From positions 1 through 38,282 of the IMG/VR virus record IMGVR_UViG_3300035698_007267: 38,282 nt of DNA; one strand, written 5' to 3'. A program made the position numbers and the translations under genes. Of the stretch, positions 1 to 38,282 are shown one piece after another (within the stretch, counting starts at the first letter, position 1; the number at the start of each line of letters is the position of its first letter). Source of the stretch: a virus. Under the pieces are notes generated by a model, which saw only the letters and a list, made by a program, of their open reading frames with translations, was not told the DNA's origin and made no database searches.

Positions 1-127
1 CAATTATATTTCAGTAGCTTTGTTTTGGACTCCAGAAACTTTCTTTACTGAAACTGCACCCTGTACATAAGACTTAAAGTTCAAGTCCCAGTCTGTATCT
101 CCACCCAAGTTAGCCCACACACCTGCC
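1..127. repeat. Terminal direct repeat, left copy (assembly overlap)
   Basis: These 127 bases are identical to 38156-38282. The length equals a common de Bruijn k-mer size, so this is best read as the overlap left when a circular or circularly permuted genome is assembled. A true short terminal repeat is possible but less likely, because the repeat lies inside a coding sequence (the 3' end of the glycine-rich adhesin gene). The non-redundant genome is 38,155 bp. Confidence 0.95.
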
Positions 128-7068: not shown

Positions 7069-7572
7069 TTACTTATTTTCCTCAAGATCTATCATCAGGG
7101 AAAATATACTTACCAATTGAGAGGATGTTATGTTTTCCGGTAGATCCTCTTGATTCAAACCTAAAAGGTGTATTTCAAATTCTTCATTTAAAATATTATT
7201 AAAATCCTCTAACTGTTTCTCTCTATCCTCGACCACATCAGCATTACTTTTCTTTAACTCATCTACTGCTTTTTCAAAAGCCTTAATATCTTTAATAACA
7301 AATCGTGATTGGCCTTTATCCCTTATAATTTTTGGATCTCCATTTTCTTCCTTTTCAGAAAATTTCTCTGCGAGTTCAATTCTTTTATTATCAAATTCTA
7401 TAAAAGCCTCACTTGGTTCTTGCGCTTTGTTTAGTGCTTTTATTTCATCTTGTAATAGAGATATATTCTTAGCAATAACGTAAACAAATCTTGAGCCTGA
7501 TAGATTTCCTACGGAATGTAAGTTATTAAATAAATCAACCGCTTCTTTTTTAGTTATATTTAAAGTAGGCAT
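7069..7572 (-). CDS. Head-region helical protein, function unknown
   Basis: A 167-residue, mainly helical protein with N-terminal segment LSGSRFVYVIAKNISLLQDEIKAL, a charged middle and a C-terminal QLVSIFSLMIDLEE. The order, a short N-terminal helix with LSG-rFxYxIaKN followed by E-rich helices, resembles small unknown proteins found near head genes of Gram-positive phages (DUF1617-like), but this is a pattern match only. It lies between a tiny basic protein gene and the SAP-like gene. The ATG has no Shine-Dalgarno; it is preceded at exactly 6 nt by TACAAT, itself joined to the upstream stop codon. Confidence 0.6.
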   Translation of the reverse strand: MPTLNITKKEAVDLFNNLHSVGNLSGSRFVYVIAKNISLLQDEIKALNKAQEPSEAFIEFDNKRIELAEKFSEKEENGDPKIIRDKGQSRFVIKDIKAFEKAVDELKKSNADVVEDREKQLEDFNNILNEEFEIHLLGLNQEDLPENITSSQLVSIFSLMIDLEENK

Positions 7573-9914: not shown

Positions 9915-12900
9915 TCAATTATTATTTATTCTTCTCCTTATTGTTCTTTGTGAAGATGGGGCATACGTATTGATTAGTTTTTCTACATCATCCTTACTGG
10001 CTTTTGACAGTTTCTCAAAAGCATCTGTATTATCCTTATCAGTTAAAGAACCTTCTATTTTATAGACTGCTCTAACAAAATCCCTAACATAACCATCCGC
10101 TCTCTCTTGATCAAACACACCTTCCTCAACCCCGATTTCTACTGCCCTGAAAAATCTATCCTTTTGTGTATCTGAAAGATCTGTTTTATAAGCAATATCT
10201 AAAGTGTCATAAATAACTCCATAACTCCATGATTGTGTATTACCATTTCTATAAAATTGCCTTACAAAAGGTGTTCTATTAGGATCAAACTCCCCACCTA
10301 TAGAAGTAGCTGCTGATTCAAATGTAGAAGTAACAAATTCAAAAGGCCCCCCTAGATATTGGTCATACATATATTCAAGATCATCGGGGTGTATGTCTAT
10401 AACGCCCCTAGTTTTTTCATCTCCACCGGTTAGCTTATTCAAAATCTCCGATATAAATATCGCTACCTCACTTGTATTTTCAAAATATGTAGCACTATTT
10501 GGCTTAGGTGTTTTTGTAAATATTTGATCCGGGTGTATTTTCCCATCATACCAAGCATCGTTTGAGTTTATATCTGCAATTGGTTTTATCAAAGTAGGCC
10601 ATAAATCGTTTAGTTTAGTTCCAAAAGGGGAGAAACTATTTACTGCTGTTTCTGCAACTTGTTTTGTAGCTTCATCAAAATCCTTAGTACCCCAAGCTAT
10701 ATCAGACATCTGCCTTCCCATAGCATAGAAAGTTGTGTATCCATAAGGCATATTCCAAAGATTTACTTCTTTTCCATTGCCTATTGAAAATGATAATTTG
10801 TGATTCTTTGTCCACTCACTCATTTGCTCATCTCCTTCTTTATCTATCAGCTTAGATAAAGAGCCTGTCAAAAACCCTAACATTGTCATAGCACCTAAAG
10901 ACTTTACTATTCTAGTTCTTCCTTTTCTTGATGCTATTGATCTAGCAACTTTAGAAGTACCTTGAATAGCCGGGTTAATAAAACCATACGCACTTTTTAG
11001 AATAGGTGACATTTCACCTTGTCTTGAAAAGTTTACTGTTAAATCTGCTGCTGCTTGAATAGCTTTGTTTGGTGACATTCCCCTACCAATCAATTCCTTA
11101 TAAGCTGAAAATCTAATACCCAACTCGACCATTGTTTGTGCATCGTCAACAAATTCCCCTGCTTTCCTAACTGGATTTGTAAATTTTTCAACCCCCGCAT
11201 TTTGTATTTCTTTTTGTAACTTTAATAAGGATTGTTCTGCGTCTTGAACTGGTTCTAACCAATAATGTCCTGTATCACCGCCGTCTTTAAAAAATTGATC
11301 TACAAGTTTATTTCCATCACCTTTTAAATAACCCCAAATTTCTTTTTGTGATTGTGGTATTCCCTTAGCAACATCTATTTTTAAATTCTTCCCTGCATCT
11401 CCAAGTTCTCCCTGCTCGACACTTAGGTTAATAAGTCCTTCTCCAACATCCCTTTGAAAGTTTGTAATTAAGAATTCAGGTCGCCATCTAGTTTTAAAAC
11501 CACTCCAAATAGATAGGGCTGTTCTAAAACTCTTTGCCCAAGTAGGCACTCTAGAAAGATTAGTATTCTTTAATGCCCTTGCTAAATCGGGATCTTTTAC
11601 AGTTATGAAATATTCAGATCCATTTATCTTTGTAAGAATTACATTAGGGCCAACTTTAAATATTCTACCCCAAACATCTTCGGTAATACTTTCCAATGTG
11701 GGGCTAGCCGTAGGCTTGATATTAAGAAGTGGTTTCAATGTAGAATCCTTATTTATCACTCTTGTTATTTCCTTATGGAATTCGGGCATAGAACTTGCTG
11801 CCAAGTCCCTATGTGTCAACCACCATGAAAAAGCGTTAGCAAACTGTTCCTCCGGCATAGCAAGCCTTGTTGGATTTTCTCCAACTTCTAATTCTGAATG
11901 TTTATAAATCTCCAATCCAATAGTAGTATTTTTTACAACTCTTTTTGCCAATCCTTTTCTTATATCTAAAAAATGTCCTATCTCGTGCGCTAGCGTTTCC
12001 CTGCTTGTTGCAAATTTTCTTACAACTTTATTCTCAAGAGGAGAATAGTAACCTAGTTTTCTTCCGGGTTGCCCTTCTGTTTCAAAAACATCTAATCCCA
12101 ATCCTTCAGCGAACCCAACTAAATCATCTACAAACTTTTTATCTATCTCCGCTTTCAATTCTCTTTTAGCCAAAACTCCAACCGGATCTTTATCAACTGT
12201 AAACACCGTATCTTTTAAAAATGGATAAACTCTTGTCATATCAACAATAGTCTTACCTATATCATTCTTTAATTTAATTGTATAAACCCTTTCCATTCTG
12301 TGAAATGTATTTCCAATAGTAGATAAAACCCTTCTATCAGAACCTTTTGCTCTTTTAATAATACTTCTTGGAGTTGCTATACCCTGACCTGTTCCTATTC
12401 CTGTATAATCCTCGCTCATATCTCTAAATAATGGGGCGTAATTTTTATATGTAGAATTTATTTTTTCTGCTTCTGATTTCTTTAACAGTCCGTTTGCAAC
12501 CATGTACTTCAATGTATGTTTATCAAACTCCTTTAACTCCGCTATAAAAGGATCCATTTTACTATTATCTCTTGCTAAAATTTCATCTGCTTCAGAATCT
12601 TTCATTCCTGATAACCCTTCTTCAGCAGGTTTTCCTATCTCTGCCCTTCTTCTATTCATTTCCGCATTTCTTTCCTTAGCGTGCAATGCGTGTCTGTACT
12701 CATCCAATTCTTCAAAAGTTAAATCTGCCAACACAAGTCTTTCAACAAAATCTCTTTTTATATCTCTAATTCTTCTTATCTGATCTGCCTGTTTTCTAGG
12801 CAACATATCTTTCTGCGCCCATAAATCTAACTGCTCTTTTACTGAATCTCCGGTTCTTTCTTCAATAGATTGATTCAAAGATTTCAATCTTATATTCATA

Positions 12901-15194
12901 TCCTCAACCGTTCTTCTAAATTTCTGCCATTTTGTAGTTTCAGGAATTGTGAACTCCCCGCTGTGATCTTGAGATACAGTTTTGGTACTATTAGCAGGAG
13001 GTATTTTATCCATATCCTCGGTAATTTGAACCACTTTATCCAAATTATCTTGTATGTTATTCTTTGAATATGTCGAGTCTGCCTCAATTACATCCTTTGA
13101 TAAAGTACGGTCTAATGTTTCTGTTTCTGATCTTTCTTGTTGGGATCTTTGATCCCCCAAATCCTGTTGTGATTGGCGTACTTCTGTTCCTTTTTCTATT
13201 GCTTCCGTAGCATTTCTAATTCCCTCCGCCCTGCTTTTAATTTCATCTTGTAAGATATCGTATAGTTCCTGCTGTCTAGTAGCATTTTTGGCAGGTGTTA
13301 TGTTGTTTGCAGGATCTAGCATTGGTAATACTTTTTCAAAAAGTGACTTAGATCTCAAGTACTCCGGAACCCAAGAAGGAAATGTTGATGGTATTCCTAT
13401 AACACCTGCGTTCTCCGTTGGAATTCTTTGTCCTGCTTCGGCGGTTTCAACCTCCTGAAATACCTGTGCATATGCTTCTTGAAAAGCAATATCTTCTGCA
13501 ACTTCGTCTGTTGTAGCAGTCTGTGTTTCTCCTTCTATCCCCTGTGTTTCAGGAACTACATCTGTTTGAGTTTTAATATCTTGTTGTGTCTTTATATTCT
13601 GCAAATCAGTATAGACTTCCCCTACTGTTTTAAAACCTAAAAGTTTTTCATCTCCTGTATATAAAACCGGAGCCTTCATATCCAATTCCTCAAAAGCGGT
13701 TCTTCTATTAGACCCATCAAATGTTTCCCAAGAACCATCCTCCGATCTCTGCATTATTATTGGCTCTATTACTTCTCCATTCTGTATTCTTATTTTATAA
13801 TCATCTACTGTCTGCCTATCAATAGGATCTCTAGATCTTATATCCTTAGCATCAATAGATCCCAATTGACTTTCTGTAGATGTTCCAAAAACTACATCTG
13901 CAAAATCGCTAGCTTCTACAAAATCCCTAGCTTCCTTTGCATAATTCTCTGTATAACTTTTTAAAGAATCCTTATTGGATTCAATTATGTTTATCTGTTC
14001 TATATCTTGCTCTGTAACACCCCCAATATCTCCATTCCTTATCCCATTAGCAAAAGAAACCATTACCTCTGCTCCCGCACCTCCTAATAAACCACCTAAT
14101 GCTGACATGGCATTTCTAGTAGCAATTTCATCCCAACCTAAATCTTCTCTAAATGTAGATTCAACACCTATCTGAATATCTTCTTGTACAACCTCTGTGC
14201 CTGCTTCTTTTAAAGAAATTTTAACTATTCTTTTTGTAAGACCTTTGGCGAATTGGCCCTGTTCTCTTGGAGAAAATACTTCATCAGGAACTAATTTATC
14301 TACCCAACCAACTAAAATTCCTGTACCTACACCTATTCTCAATGCTTTATCTTTATCCAATCCCGATTCTTGTGCTGCTGTACTTACATCATCCGCAACT
14401 GCTCCCGAAGATACTGTAAAACCAACAATAGGATTTAATGCGAAAGCGCCTAAAGATGCTATAACTCCGGGGCCTGCATATAGTACTGTTTCAAAAATAT
14501 TTGTTGGCAAAAACTTTTCGCCTAAAGTTGAATTAGACCATTCCTCCGTTGGAACTAATCCGGGCTTCTCCCTTAAATCTTGAGTGAACTTCTTCATACT
14601 TTCAGTTTTTGATCCTAATGTATTATCATAAAAGTTTATCCACTTATCCGCCATCTCATTACCTTTTTCAGGATCGTACATAGTCCTCATAGCATCAGCA
14701 CGTACTTTTTCTCCGGGTGATAGTTTCTTATAATCCTCATCGGAAATATTTACATACTCTTTACTAACTTGTACATACATTGGATTTCTAAACTTTTGCT
14801 CAAAATGGTTTGCTATTAAATCTCCTGCAACATCTATAGTTGATGTTCCTAAATTCAGTAACTCTACACCAGTTCTAGGAAGTAATTTCACCATACCGCT
14901 AGTTATATCCCCTGAAATATTCTTTAATCCTGAAAATAACTTTCCGAAGAATCCTTTCTTCTCTTGTTCCTTTTCATCTACGGATTCCTCTATAACAGGC
15001 TTTCTATCAAAGTCTATAGAAGCAGATGATTTATATTTAGTAGGATTGTCCTTTATTGTTTTTAAAATAGAATCGTTAAATGGAAGGTTGCCCGATTTCT
15101 TAACAGTACCGCTTAGATCTACGGTTGTTCCACCGTATTTATAGGTACTACCATTTAAAGTTTTCAGTATATCTTCATGTTTTGGTATCGGCAT
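9915..15194 (-). CDS. Giant polyvalent internal virion protein (ParB-like and zincin modules)
   Basis: A 1,759-residue protein between the LysM virion protein and terminase. Hydrophobic, glycine-rich segments at about 232-265 and 285-300 could insert in membranes. About residues 441-515 look like a ParB/sulfiredoxin-type module: a 'pIDRQTVDDYKIRIQNGEV' strand-helix followed by DGSNRRTA (493-500). Residues 1015-1080 end in HEIGH (1070-1074), a zincin metallopeptidase-like site. The last 600 residues resemble the C-terminal region of large podoviral internal proteins and polyvalent proteins (helical, with RD/NF motifs and FINPAIQG). It is likely ejected with the DNA and could form the ejection channel, digest a target or protect the DNA. 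Ribosome site GAGG precedes ATG by 6 nt. Confidence 0.75.
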   Translation of the reverse strand: MPIPKHEDILKTLNGSTYKYGGTTVDLSGTVKKSGNLPFNDSILKTIKDNPTKYKSSASIDFDRKPVIEESVDEKEQEKKGFFGKLFSGLKNISGDITSGMVKLLPRTGVELLNLGTSTIDVAGDLIANHFEQKFRNPMYVQVSKEYVNISDEDYKKLSPGEKVRADAMRTMYDPEKGNEMADKWINFYDNTLGSKTESMKKFTQDLREKPGLVPTEEWSNSTLGEKFLPTNIFETVLYAGPGVIASLGAFALNPIVGFTVSSGAVADDVSTAAQESGLDKDKALRIGVGTGILVGWVDKLVPDEVFSPREQGQFAKGLTKRIVKISLKEAGTEVVQEDIQIGVESTFREDLGWDEIATRNAMSALGGLLGGAGAEVMVSFANGIRNGDIGGVTEQDIEQINIIESNKDSLKSYTENYAKEARDFVEASDFADVVFGTSTESQLGSIDAKDIRSRDPIDRQTVDDYKIRIQNGEVIEPIIMQRSEDGSWETFDGSNRRTAFEELDMKAPVLYTGDEKLLGFKTVGEVYTDLQNIKTQQDIKTQTDVVPETQGIEGETQTATTDEVAEDIAFQEAYAQVFQEVETAEAGQRIPTENAGVIGIPSTFPSWVPEYLRSKSLFEKVLPMLDPANNITPAKNATRQQELYDILQDEIKSRAEGIRNATEAIEKGTEVRQSQQDLGDQRSQQERSETETLDRTLSKDVIEADSTYSKNNIQDNLDKVVQITEDMDKIPPANSTKTVSQDHSGEFTIPETTKWQKFRRTVEDMNIRLKSLNQSIEERTGDSVKEQLDLWAQKDMLPRKQADQIRRIRDIKRDFVERLVLADLTFEELDEYRHALHAKERNAEMNRRRAEIGKPAEEGLSGMKDSEADEILARDNSKMDPFIAELKEFDKHTLKYMVANGLLKKSEAEKINSTYKNYAPLFRDMSEDYTGIGTGQGIATPRSIIKRAKGSDRRVLSTIGNTFHRMERVYTIKLKNDIGKTIVDMTRVYPFLKDTVFTVDKDPVGVLAKRELKAEIDKKFVDDLVGFAEGLGLDVFETEGQPGRKLGYYSPLENKVVRKFATSRETLAHEIGHFLDIRKGLAKRVVKNTTIGLEIYKHSELEVGENPTRLAMPEEQFANAFSWWLTHRDLAASSMPEFHKEITRVINKDSTLKPLLNIKPTASPTLESITEDVWGRIFKVGPNVILTKINGSEYFITVKDPDLARALKNTNLSRVPTWAKSFRTALSIWSGFKTRWRPEFLITNFQRDVGEGLINLSVEQGELGDAGKNLKIDVAKGIPQSQKEIWGYLKGDGNKLVDQFFKDGGDTGHYWLEPVQDAEQSLLKLQKEIQNAGVEKFTNPVRKAGEFVDDAQTMVELGIRFSAYKELIGRGMSPNKAIQAAADLTVNFSRQGEMSPILKSAYGFINPAIQGTSKVARSIASRKGRTRIVKSLGAMTMLGFLTGSLSKLIDKEGDEQMSEWTKNHKLSFSIGNGKEVNLWNMPYGYTTFYAMGRQMSDIAWGTKDFDEATKQVAETAVNSFSPFGTKLNDLWPTLIKPIADINSNDAWYDGKIHPDQIFTKTPKPNSATYFENTSEVAIFISEILNKLTGGDEKTRGVIDIHPDDLEYMYDQYLGGPFEFVTSTFESAATSIGGEFDPNRTPFVRQFYRNGNTQSWSYGVIYDTLDIAYKTDLSDTQKDRFFRAVEIGVEEGVFDQERADGYVRDFVRAVYKIEGSLTDKDNTDAFEKLSKASKDDVEKLINTYAPSSQRTIRRRINNN

Positions 15195-21641: not shown

Positions 21642-22367
21642 TTAAAAACCGTATTTAGCTTGTACGTTTCGGCGTTTGAGTGAGAAGCTTGGCTTCTTAT
21701 CCTTTGAGCGCCTTTCGTAGAATTCACGCATAGCGTCAGCGATCTGCTGTTTTTGTTGTGTAAGCACGACAACTTTTTCCTTCATTCCGTTAGATATAGC
21801 ATACCTCAATGATGCACTAACAGACAAGTATTGATGAAATTGTGGGTTAAATCCGGGAGAATTTTCCTCATCTGTAATAACAAAGTGAGTACCGGCTCTC
21901 TGAAACTCTACCTCTACGCCACTAGTAGCGCCATAGTTAGGAACAGGAACGGGAAAAATAACCCCGCCCATTTTATAATACTTTTCGGGATTCCCGGTGT
22001 TAGTTGTAGCAAGATCCTCATCTGATAGATCACGCCTTTCAACTGGTATAAGTGTATCAAATTTGCCCTCGCTGTTTTGGATTCTAACTCGGTGAAGTAT
22101 CTGCGCACTATCTAATAAATCGTAATGATCCTGCCCGGCTGTTAAATCTAATGTAGCAATAGGGATATCTGCGTTTGATGTATCATCCCATTTATATAAA
22201 GGATCTGCCCTATACATTATAGAAGTAGCTTCATCGTAAGCTATATTTATATTCCTAGTTCTGTCCGTTAGGGAGTACTTTGTATTGAGGCTTTCGCTAT
22301 CTCCAAAGAGTAGAAAATCAATATCACCTATTAAGCTATTGGCCTTATCGGTCGGATTGAATTGCAT
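21642..22367 (-). CDS. Head-tail adaptor-like protein
   Basis: A 241-residue protein directly before the portal gene. Its pattern fits podoviral head-tail adaptors: N-terminal helices (RTRNINIAYDEATSIMYRAD), a beta hairpin region (TLDLTAGQDHYDLLDSAQILHRVRI), and a C-terminal helix pair (QFHQYLSVSASLRYAISNG then VVLTQQKQQIADAMREFYERR) ending in a basic tail, KYGF. Such proteins dock under the portal to connect the nozzle. A strong extended -10 promoter ends 9 nt before its ATG, so this is probably the first late gene. No Shine-Dalgarno is seen. Confidence 0.65.
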   Translation of the reverse strand: MQFNPTDKANSLIGDIDFLLFGDSESLNTKYSLTDRTRNINIAYDEATSIMYRADPLYKWDDTSNADIPIATLDLTAGQDHYDLLDSAQILHRVRIQNSEGKFDTLIPVERRDLSDEDLATTNTGNPEKYYKMGGVIFPVPVPNYGATSGVEVEFQRAGTHFVITDEENSPGFNPQFHQYLSVSASLRYAISNGMKEKVVVLTQQKQQIADAMREFYERRSKDKKPSFSLKRRNVQAKYGF

Positions 22368-24888: not shown

Positions 24889-26502
24889 TTATAGCAAACC
24901 ACCTTCCGGCTTAATTTCGTCTACTATAAGGTATTTTATTTTGAACCACACCGCTCTACCTTTTTTAAATTTCGCTACCGCTCCCTCATCGGTCATAATA
25001 TTTATAGTTCTATCAAAAGTACTTTCACTAATACCGCTTCCGCTTAGAATTGTTATTAGATCTTGTCTGCTAACCCCACTTTGTGTTTCGTTTAGTACAT
25101 CCTTTATAATTTCCTCGGCTTCTGAACTCTTGCCATCGCTATCGCTTGCAACTATTCCCAAATAAGTAAACCCGGAAACAATAGTTCCATCGTTTTCTTT
25201 GTTATTAGAAACATCCATTCTTATCATGAACTTATCCATTTTTTGTTCATCACGGGCTTTTGTTTGATGAAGTGTCATTTCTGTTTTAGATTTAGCGACA
25301 GGCTCCAGTCTAAACATTGTGAAAGCTTGGGCGTTAATGTTAGATGATCCCCTCAAGCGTTGGGATGCGTTTCTAAAAGTACCGGATGCGGGTTTGTTTT
25401 CATGATGTATTACTAGTTTTGCAACAGAGGGAAATAGAAATCTTAATGCTTCTATAAAGCGCATAGTGTCCTCAGAGGAATTTTCAGAACCAACCATGAT
25501 ATCAATCATAGAGTCGACAACAATCAGTCCTATGTTCTTCTCTTTTACGAGAGTAGATAGTGCGATAGCGAAGTCGGATGCGTTTCCTTTGGAGTCGGAG
25601 AGTTGAAATTTATCAGGATACTTTAACATATAAAGATTGTTGGGAATGTTTTCTTCTGAAAGTCCGCGGATTCTTTTTTGCATTAGAGAGTGGGGATTTT
25701 CTTTATCAAGATAAAGAACAGGGGTTTTAGCGGGAACCTTGAAAACATCAAGCCAGTTCTCCCCATTCGCTATCGCTATCGCCATAGATAGGGCAATGAA
25801 AGATTTTCCAGTTCCTTCAGCACCATAGACGAATGCAAATCCTTCTGAATATATCATTCCTTCTATTAGCCATGGAATTTTAGCGAATTCTTTTTCGTTT
25901 AGTTCTTGGGCAGTCATGACTTGATAATCATCAGGGATAAAAGATGCCTCAAATTCTACGGGAGAGAGGGCAAGTTTCATTAGCTTTTTAAAATCTTCAT
26001 GAGAATGATTCTGATAAAATTCGCAAACATCTTTTGAACCTTGCGGGAGCATTACGATTCGGGCTTTTGGGAATTTCTCAAGCATTTCATAAACTCCTTT
26101 GATCCCGGCCTTGTCATTGTCAAAACAGATATAAATCTTTTTATCTTTTAATGGCTCAATAAACTCATCGGGAAAAGTTCCTGCCCCTCCCGTAGATGAT
26201 ACAGAAGGGATGCCCTCCTGCATTAGTTTAATAGCATCAATTTCACCTTCAGTAATAACAACCATTGATGAATCTTTAACGGCATATAAATTAAAAAGTG
26301 TTGCGTGGGATCCTAAAGAGTTTTTGTATTTAGGTTTCTTGGAATCTTCCTTATGTTTTAGATAACGGGATTTTATGAATAGGAGTTCACCATCTTCATC
26401 TAAGATAGGGATATTTAGATAGTCGCCTTCTTCTGTAAGTTCATAGAGTTCGGCGAATTCCTCGGAAATGCCGTGTTCTTTTAGATAAGCTTTGGCAGTC
26501 AT
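24889..26502 (-). CDS. TOPRIM-RecA-like replicative primase/helicase
   Basis: A 537-residue protein. The N-terminal 70 residues form a small mixed domain. A TOPRIM domain follows (E85 in ITEGE, D128/D130 in CFDND), then a RecA-like ATPase with Walker A GAEGTGKS (227-234), Walker B LIVVD (326-330) and HHENKPASG (about 366-374), as in RepA/AAA_25 helicases. A winged-helix-like segment lies at about 460-535. It is likely to unwind phage DNA and perhaps to synthesise or position primers. It lacks a covalently joined zinc finger; two small zinc proteins are coded upstream (26499-26672 and 27508-27801). Its ATG overlaps the stop of the zinc-ribbon gene. Confidence 0.85.
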   Translation of the reverse strand: MTAKAYLKEHGISEEFAELYELTEEGDYLNIPILDEDGELLFIKSRYLKHKEDSKKPKYKNSLGSHATLFNLYAVKDSSMVVITEGEIDAIKLMQEGIPSVSSTGGAGTFPDEFIEPLKDKKIYICFDNDKAGIKGVYEMLEKFPKARIVMLPQGSKDVCEFYQNHSHEDFKKLMKLALSPVEFEASFIPDDYQVMTAQELNEKEFAKIPWLIEGMIYSEGFAFVYGAEGTGKSFIALSMAIAIANGENWLDVFKVPAKTPVLYLDKENPHSLMQKRIRGLSEENIPNNLYMLKYPDKFQLSDSKGNASDFAIALSTLVKEKNIGLIVVDSMIDIMVGSENSSEDTMRFIEALRFLFPSVAKLVIHHENKPASGTFRNASQRLRGSSNINAQAFTMFRLEPVAKSKTEMTLHQTKARDEQKMDKFMIRMDVSNNKENDGTIVSGFTYLGIVASDSDGKSSEAEEIIKDVLNETQSGVSRQDLITILSGSGISESTFDRTINIMTDEGAVAKFKKGRAVWFKIKYLIVDEIKPEGGLL

Positions 26503-26673: not shown

Positions 26674-27162
26674 TCATTCTTTCATTCCTTCCGGGAAAAT
26701 TATCTTTTTGTATGTTTCAACAACCAGTATCGCGTCTGCTTCATGTTCTGTAATTTCTCTTTTTATCTTTGTAAGTTTTTTGGCAATCGCTATCGCTTCC
26801 TCTTTTGTTTTATACTTAAAAGTGCTTTTGCAAACCTTATTATGTACTTGGTTTACCCATGATCCTTGAGCCATAGCAAGGGAAACAATCGCCCCGAACA
26901 CTTGATTTAGAGATGTAACGGCTCTGCTGTTTCTTATTGGGACAGTTTCTTCTATTACTACTAGATCCGGACCATATGTTTCAAAAAGTTCATCAAACCC
27001 TAAAATAATTTTCTTTAGTTTATTAAGATCAAAAGTTCCATCAAATTTATAATTGATGGCATTTATAAATTTACCATTTTCATAAATGGCAACGCCACAA
27101 TTAGTTGTTGAACTATCTATTCCTATTGTTATTATCTTTTTCTTTTCTTTTTTATTTGCCAT
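26674..27162 (-). CDS. RuvC-like Holliday-junction resolvase
   Basis: A 162-residue RNase H-fold nuclease. The first strand holds GIDSSTTNCGVA (catalytic D), then VVIEE (E), then EHEADAILV (D), giving the acidic residues and order of RuvC. FGAIVSLAM and VNQVHNKVCKSTFKYKTKEEAI fit the intervening region. It would cut branched recombination or replication intermediates before packaging. The start overlaps the 27152-27511 gene by 11 nt; AAAAGG lies upstream. One base after its stop begins the zinc-ribbon gene. Confidence 0.85.
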   Translation of the reverse strand: MANKKEKKKIITIGIDSSTTNCGVAIYENGKFINAINYKFDGTFDLNKLKKIILGFDELFETYGPDLVVIEETVPIRNSRAVTSLNQVFGAIVSLAMAQGSWVNQVHNKVCKSTFKYKTKEEAIAIAKKLTKIKREITEHEADAILVVETYKKIIFPEGMKE

Positions 27163-27511
27163 CTTTGGATGCCTTTTTCAATAAACTATGCTTGAATTCA
27201 ACACACATTCTAATTAGAGTATTATATGGTTTTTCTATAAATTGAGTCATTTTCGCTAGATTTCTATCAAAAGATAGATCATTGTTAGCACAATAGAAAA
27301 CAAAATCATCAACTGTTTGTAGGCTTTCGCTTATTACTATCATTTTTAAAAGACTTAATATTTCAGATGCCTGACTTTCAAGTACTTGTTCGGGAGTGAG
27401 TTCTATTATAGTTTCTTTTTCCTTATCTAGTGTTGGAACTTTTATAATAGCCCTATTTAGTATATTTTTTATCTCTTGTTTTATTGCTGTTTCATTTAGT
27501 TCTGTTTTCAT
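27152..27511 (-). CDS. Unknown helical replication-operon protein
   Basis: A 119-residue helical protein (LNETAIKQEIKNILNRAIIKVP at the start, PYNTLIRMCVEFKHSLLKKASKDGK at the end) with no clear motif. It lies between the CHC2 zinc-finger gene and the RuvC-like gene and overlaps both by 4 and 11 nt, so it is probably part of one replication operon. GGAGG precedes its ATG. It may be a helicase loader or small primase part, from position only. Confidence 0.55.
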   Translation of the reverse strand: MKTELNETAIKQEIKNILNRAIIKVPTLDKEKETIIELTPEQVLESQASEILSLLKMIVISESLQTVDDFVFYCANNDLSFDRNLAKMTQFIEKPYNTLIRMCVEFKHSLLKKASKDGK

Positions 27512-27801
27512 TGTGTTAGTTCCTCCAATGCTGTTTGAAAATCACAATCTTTTAGTTTCATATAAAAAGAAATAGCATCCCCACCACCGCACCCGGCGAA
27601 ACAATTCCATGTATTAGTATTAGGATAGATTGCAAAAGATGGGGTATCTTCTTCGTGAAAGGGGCATTTTCCCATTAAAGTTTTACCTGTTCTTTTTAAT
27701 TGTCCGGAATATAAGTTTTCTATAGGAAATTGATTAGCTTTATCTACTTTATCATTGTTAAAACTCTTTTCTGTGTTGAATAGGCGAACTTTTCTTTGCA
27801 T
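27508..27801 (-). CDS. CHC2 zinc-finger protein (primase zinc-binding domain)
   Basis: A 97-residue protein with the DnaG-type CHC2 zinc finger only: KCPFHEEDTPSFAIYP then WNCFAGCGGGDAISF, with Cys-x2-His and Cys-x3-Cys spacing. In DnaG the zinc finger is joined to TOPRIM; here it is a separate polypeptide coded at the head of the leftward operon, with the TOPRIM domain in the helicase about 1.1 kb downstream. It would help read the template for primer synthesis. The ATG has no Shine-Dalgarno and is predicted to be the first base of the mRNA. Confidence 0.85.
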   Translation of the reverse strand: MQRKVRLFNTEKSFNNDKVDKANQFPIENLYSGQLKRTGKTLMGKCPFHEEDTPSFAIYPNTNTWNCFAGCGGGDAISFYMKLKDCDFQTALEELTQ

Positions 27802-27807
27802 ATTTGA

Positions 27808-27836
27808 AAGATATCACATCCTACAAATAGAGTCAA
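27808..27836 (-). promoter_or_regulatory. Leftward early promoter, predicted leaderless
   Basis: The minus strand has TTGACT (27836-27831), a 17-bp spacer, TGA and TATCTT (27813-27808). Six bases follow to the ATG at 27801, so +1 is the A of the start codon of the CHC2 gene. Two CAAATAGA repeats overlap this promoter, one in the spacer and one over the -35. Confidence 0.75.
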
Positions 27837-27865
27837 ATAGAAACATTTGACAACAAATAGAAACA
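27824..27865. promoter_or_regulatory. Three phased CAAATAGA repeats, probable operators
   Basis: CAAATAGA occurs at 27824, 27834 and 27854, spaced by 10 and 20 bp, so all copies face one side of the helix. The latter two extend to CAAATAGAAACA. The first lies in the leftward promoter spacer, the second over its -35, and the third in the rightward promoter spacer. A bound protein would control both promoters. The HTH product of the adjacent gene is the natural candidate. Confidence 0.7.
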
Positions 27866-27875
27866 ATGATATTCT
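27847..27875 (+). promoter_or_regulatory. Rightward early promoter, predicted leaderless
   Basis: A consensus TTGACA (27847-27852), a 17-bp spacer ending in TGA, and TATTCT (27870-27875). Six bases follow, then ATG at 27882, so the transcript should start at the A of ATG, as in the lambda cI message made from the maintenance promoter. One CAAATAGAAACA repeat lies in the spacer. Confidence 0.75.
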
Positions 27876-27881
27876 CTAAAC

Positions 27882-28109
27882 ATGGATAAAGATGATATTA
27901 ACATTAACATAAATGACTACAAGGAATTCATGAGTTTGCAAGATGTTGCAGACTACTTGGGAGTTCATATAAATAGTATTTATAACTATTTAAAAGATGG
28001 GGGAAAACCACTTCCATCTATTCACATCTCTAAAAAAAAGATATTAGTTAAGAAGGAAGATCTAATTGATTGGCTCAATGAGCAGAAAGACGAGGAAGAA
28101 AATGAGTAA
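27882..28109 (+). CDS. Excisionase/MerR-type HTH regulator
   Basis: A 75-residue DNA-binding protein with a single winged-HTH domain: FMSLQDVADYLGVHINSIYNYLKD, then HISKKKILVKKEDLIDWLNEQ. This is the pattern of excisionase/MerR-like small regulators (HTH_17 type). It is the first gene of the rightward operon, directly beside three phased repeats that it probably binds, to set the balance of rightward and leftward transcription. No Shine-Dalgarno is present and the promoter places +1 at its ATG. No integrase is coded, so a directionality role for excision is unlikely. Confidence 0.85.
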   Translation: MDKDDINININDYKEFMSLQDVADYLGVHINSIYNYLKDGGKPLPSIHISKKKILVKKEDLIDWLNEQKDEEENE

Positions 28110-30245: not shown

Positions 30246-30503
30246 ATGGAAAATATTAAAGAAACAATAGTAGACATACCGTTGCACGATATAAAGAAAC
30301 ATTTAGAGGAAACCAAACTCCTACAGGTAGGTGTTGGGGAAATAGAGTCTGCTATGAAGATAGGAGCATTAGACTTCCCTTTATTTGCAAGTGATGATTT
30401 TAGAAAAGGTTTCAGAGAAGGGTTTGATTTGTGCGCATATAAAGTCTACGAGGTTACAAATAAACAATACAAACTAAAAGAAAAGGAAAACAAAGATGAG
30501 TAA
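30246..30503 (+). CDS. Small early protein, unknown
   Basis: An 85-residue protein with a strong ribosome site (AAGGAGG). Segments include VDIPLHDIKKHLEETKLLQVGVGEIESAMKIGALDFPLF and DDFRKGFREGFDLCAYKVYEV, suggesting a compact helical fold. No known motif. The stop region overlaps the start of the PD-(D/E)XK nuclease gene by 8 nt, so it may be a co-translated partner. Confidence 0.55.
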   Translation: MENIKETIVDIPLHDIKKHLEETKLLQVGVGEIESAMKIGALDFPLFASDDFRKGFREGFDLCAYKVYEVTNKQYKLKEKENKDE

Positions 30504-31272
30504 ATTTACTTACGAAAATATTTTATATAATGGCGAGGTAACTTTAGTATTTAATACCGCTAAGCACCGCTATATATGGGAAGAAGAAAACAAAATAATA
30601 AGATCTGTAACTCAAGCAATCAATGTTATTGATAAACCTGCTTTAGTTTGGTGGGCTGCAAATATGGCAGTTGATTATATAGCGGAACAGATAGTTCCCG
30701 GAGAAAGTTATGATGAGTTAGAGTTGGCTGATATTTGGCAAAGTGGAAGAAGGGCGCATAACGCTAGAAAGAAATCCGCAGCCGATCACGGAACATTATT
30801 ACATAAATGGATTGAGGATTATATTAACGGAGAAGATCCCGGAATACCTGTAAACAAACATTTAAAAAGATCTGCTAAGAGATTTTTGATGTGGGTAAAA
30901 GAACATAATGTTGAGTTCCTATTAGCAGAGCAAGTTGTATTCTCCAAAAAATACGAGTACGCAGGAACTACAGATTTTATTTGCAGAATTGATGGGGAAC
31001 TATTTGTGGGAGATCTAAAAACAAGTAAAGGTATTTATGAAACAATGTTTATTCAGACCGCCGCCTACAGGCACGCAAGAGAAGAAGAATTTCCTAATGA
31101 GAAGTATGCGGGGCAGATGATATTAAGAATCGGAAGCGATGGAACCTTTGAAACCGCTTTTATTAGAGGGGAAAAAGCATATAAAAAGATGTTCAAGGCA
31201 TTTGTGTACGCCCATATGTTGGCTGATGAAATGGAATTTGTGAAAAATTACAAAGCGGAAAGGAAAATTTAA
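30496..31272 (+). CDS. PD-(D/E)XK (RecB/Cas4-like) exonuclease
   Basis: A 258-residue nuclease. The core motif is YAGTTDFIC (D160), then VGDLKTSK (D173, K175) and Q187 in MFIQTAAYRH, the arrangement of PD-(D/E)XK enzymes. ADHGTLLHKWIEDYING near residue 100 matches the preceding helix motif of RecB/Cas4-type phage exonucleases. It is encoded close to the SSB-like gene, suggesting double-strand end resection for recombination. There are no clustered cysteines for an iron-sulfur cluster. AAAGG precedes the start; its stop overlaps the next ATG (TAATG). Confidence 0.85.
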   Translation: MSKFTYENILYNGEVTLVFNTAKHRYIWEEENKIIRSVTQAINVIDKPALVWWAANMAVDYIAEQIVPGESYDELELADIWQSGRRAHNARKKSAADHGTLLHKWIEDYINGEDPGIPVNKHLKRSAKRFLMWVKEHNVEFLLAEQVVFSKKYEYAGTTDFICRIDGELFVGDLKTSKGIYETMFIQTAAYRHAREEEFPNEKYAGQMILRIGSDGTFETAFIRGEKAYKKMFKAFVYAHMLADEMEFVKNYKAERKI

Positions 31273-31880
31273 TGAAAAAATTATTTATAATAGGGGTATC
31301 AACATCCCTAATCGCTATCGCAATATTTCTTTTTATAAACAAGCCCGTACCTGTAGTAGAACCCTCTTGTGAGGTAGTTGATGGAAATTCCCATATTTAT
31401 AGAGGGCAATGTCTGCCGGAAGGTTTTTCCCCGGAGGTGTTTCCTTTAAATAGAAGATCTTCTTGGCTTAATACTCAACAAACATTGGATCTAAGAGCAA
31501 AGATAATGGTTGAAGAACTGATAGAAGATGCGGAAGCGGATGGTATTTGTTTAGTAGTTACTTCGGGATATAGAAGTTATGAGGAACAAGAAAAACTTTA
31601 TAGTACTTCTAATACCCCTGAATATGTTGCAGTTCCGGGGGGAAGTGAGCATCAAACAGGACTTGCAGTAGACTTTGCAGCCTGCCCCATGCGTAATGGA
31701 ATTAGAGATGATTCTGTAGAACGAGAGGATCTTGAAAAAGAATTTGAAGAACTCCCGGAGTATGAATGGTTAGACAAGTGGGCATGGACATATGGATTTG
31801 AGCAAAGTTTCAGCGTGGAAACGATTGAAGATTCTCAATACCCAGTAGAAAATTGGCATTGGAAGTTAGTATTAGAATGA
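31272..31880 (+). CDS. Membrane-anchored M15 D-Ala-D-Ala carboxypeptidase-like enzyme
   Basis: A 202-residue protein with one N-terminal transmembrane segment (LFIIGVSTSLIAIAIFLFIN, residues 4-23), then an M15B (VanY/DdcY) domain. TSGYRSYEEQEKLY (about 97-110) leads to SEHQTGLAVDF (H127, D134), and VENWHW gives E193 and H196, the full zinc/catalytic set. It would cut stem peptides of peptidoglycan outside the membrane. Its place in the early operon, away from the late lysis genes, is odd: it may remodel or protect the wall, block superinfection, or help lysis. The ribosome site AAAGGAAA precedes ATG. Confidence 0.85.
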   Translation: MKKLFIIGVSTSLIAIAIFLFINKPVPVVEPSCEVVDGNSHIYRGQCLPEGFSPEVFPLNRRSSWLNTQQTLDLRAKIMVEELIEDAEADGICLVVTSGYRSYEEQEKLYSTSNTPEYVAVPGGSEHQTGLAVDFAACPMRNGIRDDSVEREDLEKEFEELPEYEWLDKWAWTYGFEQSFSVETIEDSQYPVENWHWKLVLE

Positions 31881-32512: not shown

Positions 32513-32532
32513 AGGGGGCGCTATCGCCCCCT
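32513..32532 (+). promoter_or_regulatory. GC hairpin directly before helicase start
   Basis: AGGGGGCG (32513-32520) and CGCCCCCT (32525-32532) form a perfect 8-bp hairpin with a CTAT loop, which contains one copy of the CGCTATCGC motif. CTATTATT and the helicase ATG follow at once, with no Shine-Dalgarno. It may terminate transcription partly or control start-codon access. Confidence 0.5.
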
Positions 32533-33804: not shown

Positions 33805-34809
33805 TCAACTGCTAGATTTTATGCCAAATTTACCTTTTATTTTGTTAAAAATCCTGCTTATAAACTCATTGTTTATTTCTGTATCAGAAAATGCCGAGAT
33901 ATCCTTTGTAACATTAGAATCCATAATCGCTACCGCAGCATCTATGTTGAACTGTAAGTTACTTTCTTCTTCCTCCAATGACAGGGGATTTGATGGATCT
34001 GTTTTCGTTAATTTGGCGTTTGCATAATTAAGGAAAGCCCGATACGCTACTTCTCCCTGCCCTAGCGACACCGTATATTTAATGAAGTCCTCAAGGCTCC
34101 AGTATTTGTTGTACCAAGTTTTGTCCTTGAGTCCGTAAGTTTCCTCTATAAGTGTTGGGATATCATCGGAGAGTGCCATTTTGGGGTTACTGGGGTTTGG
34201 TTCTTCATAGTTCTCTAATGCTTTCAATAAGAATTCCATCATCTCGTTTAGAGTCCAATATTTGTTATACCAGTCCTTATTTTTCAAGTTGAATTTATCT
34301 TCAAAAGAAGCGGGGAGATCTTTCGTAGGATCTATCATTTCACTAACAACAGAACCATTCGCTAATGCTATGACTTTGTTTATGTCTAGTGTTCCCGGAC
34401 AAGTAGTGGCAACAAATTTTCTATGCCCTACTATCCTATCCTCATTTAAAGGAATTCCTGTTTTTTCACAAACATATTTAACAAGCCATGCTACAGTTTC
34501 ATATGTTTTTCCGGGGAATTGTGGATCTATTTCTATTCCTATAGACATAGGGTTTGCTTGTCTAGCGTGCCATGCAATATCGTCTAATTCTATAAGTTGG
34601 GTTATTTGTTCATCTGAAACTACGAAGTGAGCAGATACTTTACTGGAAGGGTTCTTTAAATAATTTACTGTTCCTTCAAAGGTAGGCTTATCATTTGGAT
34701 CTCCCCACCAATGTAGAACTACATATTCAAAAGTCCTAACAACACCGTAATAAAACATACTTTCATTTTCAGGCGTGAAGTTAGGGGATAGGTTTTTTTT
34801 AATATCCAT
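33805..34809 (-). CDS. N-acetylmuramoyl-L-alanine amidase endolysin with repeat cell-wall domain
   Basis: A 334-residue endolysin. The N-terminal amidase_2 (PGRP-like) domain has VLHWWGD (H33), SAHFVVS, WHARQAN, IGIEID and VGHRKFVATTCPG (H129, C137), the zinc ligands. It would cleave the amide between muramic acid and L-Ala. Two homologous repeats follow, about residues 170-198 and 222-250 (LKNKDWYNKYWTLNEMMEFL and LKDKTWYNKYWSLEDFIKYT), likely wall-binding or oligomer modules. A helical end follows. The gene starts 3 nt after the stop of a holin-like gene. The 52-bp gap to the converging helicase gene has no clear terminator. Confidence 0.9.
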   Translation of the reverse strand: MDIKKNLSPNFTPENESMFYYGVVRTFEYVVLHWWGDPNDKPTFEGTVNYLKNPSSKVSAHFVVSDEQITQLIELDDIAWHARQANPMSIGIEIDPQFPGKTYETVAWLVKYVCEKTGIPLNEDRIVGHRKFVATTCPGTLDINKVIALANGSVVSEMIDPTKDLPASFEDKFNLKNKDWYNKYWTLNEMMEFLLKALENYEEPNPSNPKMALSDDIPTLIEETYGLKDKTWYNKYWSLEDFIKYTVSLGQGEVAYRAFLNYANAKLTKTDPSNPLSLEEEESNLQFNIDAAVAIMDSNVTKDISAFSDTEINNEFISRIFNKIKGKFGIKSSS

Positions 34810-34812
34810 ATA

Positions 34813-35094
34813 TTACTTGCCGAAGGTTAGACCTTTACCATCGTTAAGGAACTTAACGCGGTCAATGTAAGTTAATAATGCTGTAAGAATAGCGCTAACG
34901 CTAGATCTTATCGGTATAGGAAATATAAGTTCCCAAATTTTTACATCAAAACTTACAGGTATAACATCGAGTTGTCCTAGAATTTGTGTTGCAATCCAAG
35001 CAACTATAAAGAAGAAAACTATTCTAGCCAAATCTTTGTAACCCTCTAGCTTAGGATCCTTTATGGCTTTTTCTAAATAGCCTTTTATATTCAT
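34813..35094 (-). CDS. Holin-like small membrane protein (two TM)
   Basis: A 93-residue protein with two hydrophobic segments (about residues 23-42, ARIVFFFIVAWIATQILGQL, and 57-76, ELIFPIPIRSSVSAILTALL) and polar ends. Its place directly before the amidase suggests a holin that opens the membrane for the endolysin. No Shine-Dalgarno; TATAAT joined to the previous TGA stop lies 6 nt before ATG. It could instead be a membrane anchor for another lysis factor. Confidence 0.65.
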   Translation of the reverse strand: MNIKGYLEKAIKDPKLEGYKDLARIVFFFIVAWIATQILGQLDVIPVSFDVKIWELIFPIPIRSSVSAILTALLTYIDRVKFLNDGKGLTFGK

Positions 35095-35100
35095 GTCACA

Positions 35101-35109
35101 ATTATATCA
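35101..35109 (-). promoter_or_regulatory. Stop-codon-built extended -10 before holin-like gene
   Basis: The minus strand reads TGATATAAT, six bases, ATG at 35094. TGA is the stop of the 35107-35433 gene and supplies TGn. +1 is predicted at the A of ATG. This is the cleanest example of the genome's repeated promoter-start geometry. No -35 is visible. Confidence 0.6.
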
Positions 35110-35433
35110 TTTTTCAGATATCTTTTTGTGAAACAATAAAAGCGACCACGCAACAAATGTAAAAAATACATTTAATAAAACTGTTCTATATTGCGCTATC
35201 CCGTGTCCTAAAGGCCCTGCCCCCATGATAACTATTATAGATATGATAGCGTTTAATATAGACCCGAATCCAACTCCTACAAATAAAACTATTAAAATAG
35301 AATTTAATTTTTGTTCCATAGAGTTTATAACTTTTCTCTCCGATAGTGCTACTTTAAGGAGATAAAAGGAAGCCGGGAGTGTTGCTACTGCCGTGATTAT
35401 ATTTAGTAATCTCATTGTATTTATAAGTTCCAT
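35107..35433 (-). CDS. Small membrane protein (three TM), lysis region
   Basis: A 108-residue protein with three predicted membrane helices: about residues 8-28 (RLLNIITAVATLPASFYLLKV), 45-70 (SILIVLFVGVGFGSILNAIISIIVI) and 85-102 (TVLLNVFFTFVAWSLLLF). It resembles multi-spanning phage holins in size, but its many helices could also indicate a membrane partner or anti-holin. It is one of three consecutive small membrane proteins before the amidase. Its TGA is the TG of the next gene's extended -10. Confidence 0.6.
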   Translation of the reverse strand: MELINTMRLLNIITAVATLPASFYLLKVALSERKVINSMEQKLNSILIVLFVGVGFGSILNAIISIIVIMGAGPLGHGIAQYRTVLLNVFFTFVAWSLLLFHKKISEK

Positions 35434-35742: not shown

Positions 35743-36891
35743 CTATTCTACACTAATGTAATGCCAAGCTTTAATTTTTGGATCTTTTGTAGATTTATAT
35801 ACTCTATACAGATCATCAAACCATCTTTGATATTCTTTAGATACGCTTTCTAAAGTGAATTTCTCGGCTGTCTTTCTAATTGCTAGCGGGTTTAATTTTA
35901 CAACATCCCTTCCGGCACGAACAAAATCATCTAAAGTGTTGCATTTATAACCATTCAAGCCATCTATCACGTAGTCGGTAAAAGCGCCAAAATTTGTAGT
36001 AATTACAGGTGTTCCACATAACATCGCTTCCGCATGAACTCCTGCGAAGGGTTCGAGATAAATTGATGGAACAAATACTGCCCTTGCATGGCCCATCAAA
36101 TCTGCTCTTTTCTTAGCATCCGCAAACCCTACATACTCACAATTAGCGCTAAGAGAATTTAAAGATATCTCATCACTTAATTGTCCTGCTAGTTTTAAAG
36201 GAATCCCCAAAGCATCTGCTGTTTTAATTGCTGTAAATACCCCTTTTCTTGTTATCATTCTTCCAATAAATAAGAAGTAGTTTTGTTTCGCGTGTGACAT
36301 TGGAAAATCTTTAGTATCAAAATAGTTTGGTATAACTCTATCGTAGTAATTTCCATTTATAGATTGTCTAGGATGTTCTGATCCGTAGGTAAAGTTTTGT
36401 ATATAAGAACTTTCAAACGCTCTAAATTTAGTAAAAGATCCGCGATAGCCAATGCCGGTTTCTACTGTTAGATATAAGCCTACTGCATCTACTATTAGTT
36501 TCTGATATGTTCCCTGTGTGACTATTAAGAAATCATCATCTTTTTTTCTTTTAATTATTTCTTTAACAGCATTAGTATAATATTTTCTTGTAACCGGTTT
36601 CACCTTTTCATTTATATCGTGTTTGAATTGTTTAGAATGCCAATCATATCCGATATCATACCTATTATCTCCTTCTCCCCATGTATCCCGGAGATCCTTT
36701 AAAGTATGAGTTTCTATAAATTCTGTACAGGGAGCGTCTGATCCTTCCGCCCCGTATAAATAAACCTCGTGTCCCATCTCCATAAGCATCTTTGCTAGCT
36801 TATAATTTTTTTGAGTAAATGCGCAGCCGGCATATTCTTCTGATGTTGGTAAATGAACTAATCCTAATAAATGGAATCTATATTTTTTCAT
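35743..36891 (-). CDS. GT4-type glycosyltransferase
   Basis: A 382-residue enzyme with a GT-B/GT4 pattern. FLFIGRMITRKGVFTAIKTADALG starts the C-terminal Rossmann domain, and VFVPSIYLEPFAGVHAEAMLCGTPVITTNFGAFTDYVIDG carries the E-x7-E donor-site motif. It would transfer a sugar from a nucleotide sugar to a glycan or protein. Its ATG overlaps the sulfotransferase stop (ATGA), with a GGGGGGAG ribosome site, so the two are coupled. The target is unknown: the collagen-like fibre, another virion protein, or host surface glycan are candidates. Confidence 0.85.
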   Translation of the reverse strand: MKKYRFHLLGLVHLPTSEEYAGCAFTQKNYKLAKMLMEMGHEVYLYGAEGSDAPCTEFIETHTLKDLRDTWGEGDNRYDIGYDWHSKQFKHDINEKVKPVTRKYYTNAVKEIIKRKKDDDFLIVTQGTYQKLIVDAVGLYLTVETGIGYRGSFTKFRAFESSYIQNFTYGSEHPRQSINGNYYDRVIPNYFDTKDFPMSHAKQNYFLFIGRMITRKGVFTAIKTADALGIPLKLAGQLSDEISLNSLSANCEYVGFADAKKRADLMGHARAVFVPSIYLEPFAGVHAEAMLCGTPVITTNFGAFTDYVIDGLNGYKCNTLDDFVRAGRDVVKLNPLAIRKTAEKFTLESVSKEYQRWFDDLYRVYKSTKDPKIKAWHYISVE

Positions 36892-37505
36892 AACATTCTC
36901 CCCCCGTTGTTTATCGAGAAGTCACCTAAGATCTTGTAATCCTTTTCATAAAGTTTTTTTACCATGCCGATTAGTTTTTCATCCCCGGCATAGTATGATG
37001 AGTAATGAGCGTGATTAGAAGGCCGTTCCTTTGTTAGTTCTTGTGGTATCCCAACACCTATTTTATTACAAACAAAATCCCAGTCCTCTTTTAAATTTGA
37101 AAATCTTCCGATAAAATCAACTATAACTTTATCATCGCTATCGCATAGAAAATAGTATTGTGGTACAAAATGATGGTGATGGTGTCCTGCCCCATTTATT
37201 GATCCGGGAATGTCTATCCCCATTTTATCCATAAAGTAAACAAATTCTCTAAATCCCTTATTATTCCTTTGGAAATTGTGAGTTCTAGGTTCGTGAAAAA
37301 AGGCGGAAACAAATCTATCTAAAGGGTTTCTAACAAATCCCCAAGTAAACATTCTGTTCCATTCTTTTTCTCCTACAATATCTTTTAATACTTGTGCCGT
37401 AGCGTGGGAATTTCCTCCAACAAAGTCATGTATTTCCATAGAAGTTCCGGCAGTCTTTGGATTATGTATAAATATATTGTTGTACTTCATATTGATATTA
37501 CTCAT
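36888..37505 (-). CDS. Sulfotransferase-family enzyme
   Basis: A 205-residue protein with NPKTAGTS (about 15-22), the 5'-phosphosulfate-binding loop of PAPS-dependent sulfotransferases. GFVRNPLDRFVSAF (about 58-71) is the 3'-phosphate-binding motif. It is of the Sulfotransfer_2 type that acts on carbohydrates. I chose the ATG at 37505, which overlaps the methyltransferase stop and has AAAGGAG upstream; the longer frame from 37529 includes that ribosome site. The product probably sulfates a sugar made or added by the adjacent glycosyltransferase. Such an enzyme is uncommon in phage genomes. Confidence 0.8.
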   Translation of the reverse strand: MSNINMKYNNIFIHNPKTAGTSMEIHDFVGGNSHATAQVLKDIVGEKEWNRMFTWGFVRNPLDRFVSAFFHEPRTHNFQRNNKGFREFVYFMDKMGIDIPGSINGAGHHHHHFVPQYYFLCDSDDKVIVDFIGRFSNLKEDWDFVCNKIGVGIPQELTKERPSNHAHYSSYYAGDEKLIGMVKKLYEKDYKILGDFSINNGGRML

Positions 37506-38109
37506 AATGATCTCCTTTGAATACACCATAATAACATTTACCTTTTGTCCCTTCTCTATTTATTATTTCTACTTTACCCTCTCCCCCTAACCATTTATCC
37601 AAATCTTTTTGCGTTAGCGTTTGGGGATGCCCTACATGAAATGGGGTTTCCAACCATTCAAATATTCTAATTACCTTACCTAATTTTCTTGCATTTTTAA
37701 TTATCTTTTTGGGATCTCGTACGTGTTCAAGAACATTATAAATCCAAACTTCATCAAATATTTTATCTACTTTATGTTTTAAGAGATCCTCTCCTGCAAT
37801 AGACATTGGAAAAAGCCCTGCTTCTTTGTATCGTTCTTTTGTCCATTGTGGGAACTTATTCATTAAAGGATCCGTTACAAAACTATTCTTGAAATTTACG
37901 CATTTAAGTAAAAGAGAATAGGGGCCTGATCCAATATCTAATATAGACTTGTCTTTTAAATCAAAACTGAAAGGTGTTTTAGGTGTTGGAGTTCTTACGA
38001 GTCCCATTTTTTCAGCATAGACTAGCTGTTTCTGTTCTTCATGAAATGAGTTTATACAGTTACCGTGCCATTTGGCTTCCCATTCCTGAGCTGTTTTCCA
38101 TTTATCCAT
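37498..38109 (-). CDS. SAM-dependent methyltransferase
   Basis: A 203-residue Rossmann-fold methyltransferase: SILDIGSGPYSLLLKC (about 56-70) binds SAM, and FDEVWIYNVLEHVRDP (about 118-133) is the class I post-I motif. It resembles small-molecule or sugar O-methyltransferases rather than DNA methyltransferases; no DNA target-recognition domain or DPPY/NPPF motif is seen. It is the first gene of the set with sulfotransferase and glycosyltransferase, suggesting glycan methylation. The promoter TAGACA-17-TATAAT puts +1 at its ATG. Confidence 0.8.
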   Translation of the reverse strand: MDKWKTAQEWEAKWHGNCINSFHEEQKQLVYAEKMGLVRTPTPKTPFSFDLKDKSILDIGSGPYSLLLKCVNFKNSFVTDPLMNKFPQWTKERYKEAGLFPMSIAGEDLLKHKVDKIFDEVWIYNVLEHVRDPKKIIKNARKLGKVIRIFEWLETPFHVGHPQTLTQKDLDKWLGGEGKVEIINREGTKGKCYYGVFKGDHYE

Positions 38110-38155: not shown

Positions 38156-38282
38156 CAATTATATTTCAGTAGCTTTGTTTTGGACTCCAGAAACTTTCTT
38201 TACTGAAACTGCACCCTGTACATAAGACTTAAAGTTCAAGTCCCAGTCTGTATCTCCACCCAAGTTAGCCCACACACCTGCC
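38156..38282. repeat. Terminal direct repeat, right copy (assembly overlap)
   Basis: Identical to 1-127, base for base. It contains the 3' coding end of the glycine-rich adhesin gene, so it adds no new gene. It confirms that the late leftward operon is continuous from base 4 to base 38109 on the circular map. Confidence 0.95.

Follow-up and report, generated by a model that had tools for sequence, protein, structure and literature searches.

Back-to-back promoters, probably leaderless and overlaid by phased direct repeats, between two early gene arms of a phage without a tyrosine integrase match

In the compact Cro/CI OR region of phage lambda, two divergent promoters stand back to back and share operators, and a small HTH protein is among the products; the operators are palindromic, one of the arms carries the lysogenic repressor, and the cI message from PRM is leaderless. 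In phage 186, both early promoters are repressed by Apl, which occupies direct repeats spaced 10-11 bp apart in the DNA between them (PMC7498355). Three adjacent sites are needed for Apl binding in vitro, and arrays of the types 101, 1101, and 10101 are not bound (PMC7498355). In Streptomyces, BldC forms head-to-tail multimers on direct repeats and in this form regulates its target genes (PMC5859096). How phages of Patescibacteria, a very large and mostly uncultured group, control their genes is very little known, and literature searches returned no account of a divergent phage switch such as the one described below, nor of leaderless transcripts in these bacteria.

The DNA analysed here (the window) is IMG/VR virus record IMGVR_UViG_3300035698_007267 at its full length of 38,282 bases. 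Since its first and last 127 bases (1-127 and 38156-38282) are identical, the window appears to be a phage genome in complete, circularised form. Genes between ca. 27.8 kb and position 1 point leftward, those from 27.9 to 33.8 kb rightward, and those beyond, up to the end, leftward again; the promoter pair lies at the point where the two arms diverge. The leftward arm encodes, in order, a CHC2 zinc-ribbon protein, an unknown protein, a RuvC-like resolvase, a small unknown protein, and a Toprim/AAA helicase, later followed by RadC and then the structural genes. The rightward arm encodes a 75-aa HTH_17 protein, unknown proteins, an exonuclease, a VanY-type peptidase, and a helicase (Table 1). 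Judged from these gene contents, both arms look like early replication/recombination functions.

Table 1. Coordinates of the promoters, repeats, and principal genes around the divergence point of the window
Feature	Position	Strand	Details
Leftward promoter, TTGACT-17-TG.TATCTT-6-ATG	27808..27836	-	-35 27836-27831; spacer 27830-27814; TG-extended -10 27813-27808; ATG 27801
Rightward promoter, TTGACA-17-TG.TATTCT-6-ATG	27847..27875	+	-35 27847-27852; spacer 27853-27869; TG-extended -10 27870-27875; ATG 27882
Repeat 1, CAAATAGA	27824..27831	+	inside leftward spacer and last base of leftward -35
Repeat 2, CAAATAGA	27834..27841	+	over leftward -35; counterpart CAATAG at leftward -35 of three relatives
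Repeat 3, CAAATAGA	27854..27861	+	rightward spacer; weaker counterpart 30 bp from first CAATAG in relatives
HTH_17 winged-helix protein, 75 aa; rightward early operon gene 1, proposed regulator	27882..28109	+	Pfam HTH_17 E 1.3e-10; PHROG 66 E 1.2e-8
Exonuclease, rightward arm	30496..31272	+	PHROG 298 E 1.6e-36; 57% homologue, L029 rightward arm
CHC2 (DnaG-type) zinc-ribbon primase protein, 97 aa; leftward early operon gene 1	27508..27801	-	Pfam Zn_ribbon_DnaG E 1.6e-19
RuvC-like resolvase, leftward arm	26674..27162	-	Pfam
Toprim/AAA helicase (primase-helicase), leftward arm	24889..26502	-	PHROG and Pfam; 52% homologue, L029 leftward arm

The two promoters stand back to back and mirror-like within 80 bp. 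An earlier note on this DNA had described good -35 and extended -10 elements with 17-bp spacers on both sides, and the coordinates and a motif search agree with that description. The strict motif TTGAC[AT]-17-TANNNT-6-ATG occurs at two sites in the whole 38-kb window, both of them here and 11 bp apart, against 0.035 expected per genome from mononucleotide shuffles; both -10 hexamers match TATAAT at only 4/6 positions. As in leaderless promoters, each gene has 6 nt between the end of its -10 element and the start codon, and a Shine-Dalgarno sequence is absent at both starts (27801 and 27882) while being present at other phage genes, e.g. those starting at 4577 and 24506. At additional genes of the window (21642-22367, 34813-35433, 7069-7572, and 37498-38109), too, a -10 element precedes ATG by 6-9 nt and a Shine-Dalgarno sequence is lacking, which suggests that leaderless starts are common in this phage.

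The same divergent pair, with the CHC2 zinc-ribbon gene leftward and a small HTH_17 gene rightward, was found at three homologous loci, and the HTH gene adjoins the promoters as the first gene in all four. Two of these loci are on viral contigs of 10 kb (L029) and 8 kb (L073); the third (L070) is on contig C26 of a Shapirobacteria (Patescibacteria) MAG (G004), which also carries a 61% terminase relative. C26 (39,176 bp) has an end repeat of the same size as that of the window (127 bp), suggesting that both are complete circularised genomes. The CHC2 homologue of L029 shares 67% identity at the equivalent position. All three loci have TTGACA-17-TAxxxT on both sides, the hexamers of L029 and those of the leftward promoter of L073 having been read off the printed sequence. 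The -10 element lies 6 nt from ATG in these relatives, except at the HTH gene of L073 (9 nt) and the CHC2 gene of L070 (11 nt); for the CHC2 gene of L029, this spacing needs the second ATG, from which the product starts MFGKN, resembling the MFGKH start in L073. The gap between the -35 boxes is 10 bp in the window versus 16 bp in the three relatives. Since this geometry is common to the loci although the rest of the intergenic sequence has diverged among them, it provides good support for functional promoters and a functional leaderless spacing. We are confident that the promoters are real and, somewhat less firmly, expect them to be leaderless; the placement of +1 at the A of ATG, which the earlier note had also proposed for two divergent leaderless promoters, is predicted from spacing and fits the geometry kept in the relatives.

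Neither the HTH protein alone nor a four-row HTH alignment matched anything beyond L029 among the viral contigs, and a DNA search of annotated phages gave no match. Most CHC2 matches (L002-L018 and others) were not syntenic, and the 17 of 374 host-class genomes with Toprim-helicase relatives contained no divergent CHC2/HTH pair besides that of C26. The terminase relatives L021 and L023 (72%) have the same structural genes, but their early module is a different one that includes an integrase, so that no comparison of the divergent region was possible there.

The host is likely a member of Patescibacteria, which are ultra-small bacteria, because C26 belongs to a Shapirobacteria MAG (mis-binning being possible) and strong Toprim-helicase relatives are also present in other genomes of its class. 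Promoter-like -10/-35 pairs 6 nt before a start numbered 9 in six phage sequences, against 1.67 expected. Across 59 class genomes, TTGACA-16..18-TATAAT-6-ATG occurred at 25 sites, compared with 6 sites when the 6 nt were replaced by 15 nt and 1 site for the reversed-pattern control. The TTGACA-17-TATAAT-6-ATG spacing, which the window promoters share, is enriched in the class genomes, where most sites are single. Divergent patterns whose right side is leaderless were present in 12 of 380 phylum genomes (control matches, 0); among these 380, the only clear case that is leaderless or nearly so on both sides is the phage contig C26 itself, L187 being a near case. If the leaderless reading is true, it suggests that Patescibacteria hosts commonly use leaderless initiation.

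The earlier note had also placed repeats at 10- and 20-bp steps over the spacers of both promoters and the leftward -35, and three copies of CAAATAGA were found exactly so, in helical phase. In 20,000 dinucleotide shuffles, the presence of any 8-mer three times in this 80 bp had P = 0.00185. Single copies of CAAATAGA are not rare (7 genome sites versus 3.0 expected); when up to one mismatch was allowed, the 80-bp region held the only plus-strand cluster of three within 60 bp. The exact triple is absent from L029, L070, and L073, and the array is specific to the window phage. These relatives have GTCAATAGT in common at the leftward -35, and their best second match to CAATAG lies at exactly +30 (TAATAG, TAATGG, and TTTTAG; 12/18 letters; P = 0.024 for three relatives, computed with the maximum over offsets). 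The corresponding copies in the window are 20 bp apart, with an additional copy 10 bp before. Comparison of these sequences suggests that the helical phasing of the repeats may be kept across the relatives.

Repeats located between two replication operons could be the iterons of a replication origin, bound by the HTH protein or by a primase complex. The region is AT-rich and adjoins primase genes, and the cumulative GC skew has its minimum at ca. 27-28 kb. This minimum was set aside as an origin signal because the skew follows gene orientation: its sign tracks the coding strand and is negative again after 33.8 kb, where the genes turn leftward. Besides, there are just three 8-bp repeats, all of them on promoter elements, and the array is not kept in the relatives. 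We thus regard an origin at this site as very improbable.

The first rightward gene encodes a small HTH protein, as had been noted, with matches to Pfam HTH_17 and to PHROG 66 (excisionase/transcriptional regulator). Its AlphaFold model, built from the four-row alignment, is a winged helix-turn-helix with a mean pLDDT of 76. The nearest solved folds include 6hn7, Pukovnik Xis, RdfS, RacA, and BldC, all weak (best Foldseek E 0.028), and the sequence profile also matches Pukovnik Xis weakly (E 0.021). The protein has the build of the small winged-helix DNA-binding proteins of the Xis/Apl/Cox class, recombination directionality factors that act as early regulators, with the HTH and the wing visible in the model. 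With 75 aa, it also resembles the BldC family in being a MerR-like winged-helix protein of ca. 70 aa without a coiled coil, dimerisation domain, or effector domain. BldC differs in being a chromosomal developmental regulator of AATTxxxxC sites; direct repeats of that type are absent from the locus, where the repeats are CAAATAGA, and the likeness is one of weak fold matches.

We lean towards the view that the HTH protein regulates the two promoters. A pair that is real and leaderless could instead be constitutive on infection, the HTH protein working elsewhere, e.g. as an architectural protein, in packaging, or as a relic excisionase. This would agree with the lack of conservation of the repeat array as such in the relatives and with the fold, which is also like those of packaging-related winged-helix proteins, e.g. 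6hn7 and lambda Nu1. However, the repeats lie exactly on promoter elements (P = 0.002), the CAATAG core of the relatives recurs at +30, and the HTH gene stands beside the promoters, first in all four loci. On balance, an unregulated pair appears rather unlikely. A different kind of control is suggested by the uneven distribution of the sites over the two promoters. MerR-related proteins often activate, and the HTH protein could recruit polymerase to the leftward arm from 27834, at and upstream of the leftward -35, while repressing only its own promoter. MerR targets, however, have long spacers, whereas both promoters here have normal 17-bp spacers and good -35 elements; the leftward spacer and -35 share bases with repeats 1 and 2, an arrangement that usually amounts to occlusion. 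Activation of one arm is accordingly judged unlikely, and less likely than the absence of regulation.

Returning to repression of both promoters, we give an even chance to the reading that this early divergent pair is shut off on both arms by its own first rightward product. The transcription starts, the binding of the HTH protein, and the repression with its order would, as we infer them, be as follows. Host sigma-70-type RNA polymerase would initiate both operons from the back-to-back promoters, and both messages would start at or beside AUG, so that both early replication arms are expressed at once. The 75-aa Xis/BldC-like winged-helix protein would then bind the CAAATAG direct repeats, which, being one and two helical turns apart, would present the same face of the DNA. 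By spreading across the -35 boxes and spacers, it would turn both promoters down; the leftward promoter would fall first, since it carries two of the three sites. The net effect would be negative feedback and shut-off of the early genes.

The closest counterpart of such a circuit is Apl at pR-pL of phage 186, and also Cox of P2-like phages: the first gene of an early operon encodes a small winged-helix protein, which acts on direct repeats one helical turn apart that lie between and over two opposed early promoters, both of which Apl represses. The 186 promoters are, however, face to face and one of them is lysogenic, whereas those of the window are back to back and both arms carry genes of the early lytic type. 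Phage 186 has seven adjacent operators, whereas the window has three sites with one gap and hence no three adjacent sites. Since Apl did not bind 1101 arrays in vitro, the 1101-like array of the window may be a weak one if binding does not spread along the DNA. Apl also serves as an excisionase, together with an integrase and attP; no tyrosine integrase match was obtained for the window phage. Compared with the lambda OR region, the window has direct repeats in place of palindromic operators and lacks a lysogenic arm.

The earlier note had proposed a switch without an integrase, and this is supported as regards tyrosine integrases: no match to tyrosine integrase (PF00589) was obtained in the complete window genome, while G001 and G003 matched as positive controls. 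These two genomes are structural relatives (terminase 72%) with a tyrosine integrase and a different early module; their loci L025/L026 and L027/L028 combine the same structural genes with an integrase-bearing early module, so that temperate-like and integrase-free relatives have swapped modules. Serine recombinases were covered through Pfam scans of the larger and central proteins. PHROG and Pfam returned no CI-type repressor among the searched window proteins, the first leftward gene encodes the primase zinc-ribbon where a lambda-type switch would have its lysogenic repressor on one arm, and the cognate tyrosine integrase of the Xis/Apl/Cox systems is missing from the window. A lysis-lysogeny switch as in temperate phages, its integrase missed or supplied in trans, would fit the tyrosine integrases carried by relatives with a common structural module. 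The window genome itself has neither a tyrosine integrase match nor an annotated CI-like repressor, however, and early replication genes lie on both arms, which does not support a lysis-lysogeny decision; we consider such a switch extremely unlikely. Of the early decision or timing switch suggested previously, the decision part is not supported. The timing part is plausible, in the form of an autoregulatory switch, because the weak matches of the HTH protein are to Xis-type proteins and BldC, binders of phased repeats such as these.

It may tentatively be proposed, with less than even confidence, that phages of Patescibacteria use an integrase-free early shut-off in which an Xis/BldC-like protein coats a symmetric leaderless promoter pair via phased direct repeats. 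If this is true, it adds an Xis-like protein whose sole use is to regulate transcription and whose relatives serve prophage excision. The conserved control region of 80-90 bp makes sharp predictions: AUG starts, one small regulator, and the positions of the repeats.

Several other features of the window were observed. The VanY-type D-alanyl-D-alanine carboxypeptidase gene (31272-31880) sits in the rightward early arm, away from the amidase gene (33805-34809). In the same arm, a G+C-rich strong hairpin, AGGGGGCGCTATCGCCCCCT, at 32513-32532 ends 8 nt upstream of the helicase start (32541) and may be a terminator or attenuator. The region 1338-3245 encodes a tail-fibre-like protein with collagen repeats and a CBM_5_12 carbohydrate-binding module, and 9915-15194 encodes a protein of 1759 aa that contains an LPD38 (large polyvalent protein) domain and may be injected or belong to the inner virion. 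Host-like genes stand in series at 35743-38109, putatively encoding a glycosyltransferase-like protein (by appearance), a sulfotransferase (PF03567), and a methyltransferase-like protein, and possibly serve the modification of surface or virion sugars.
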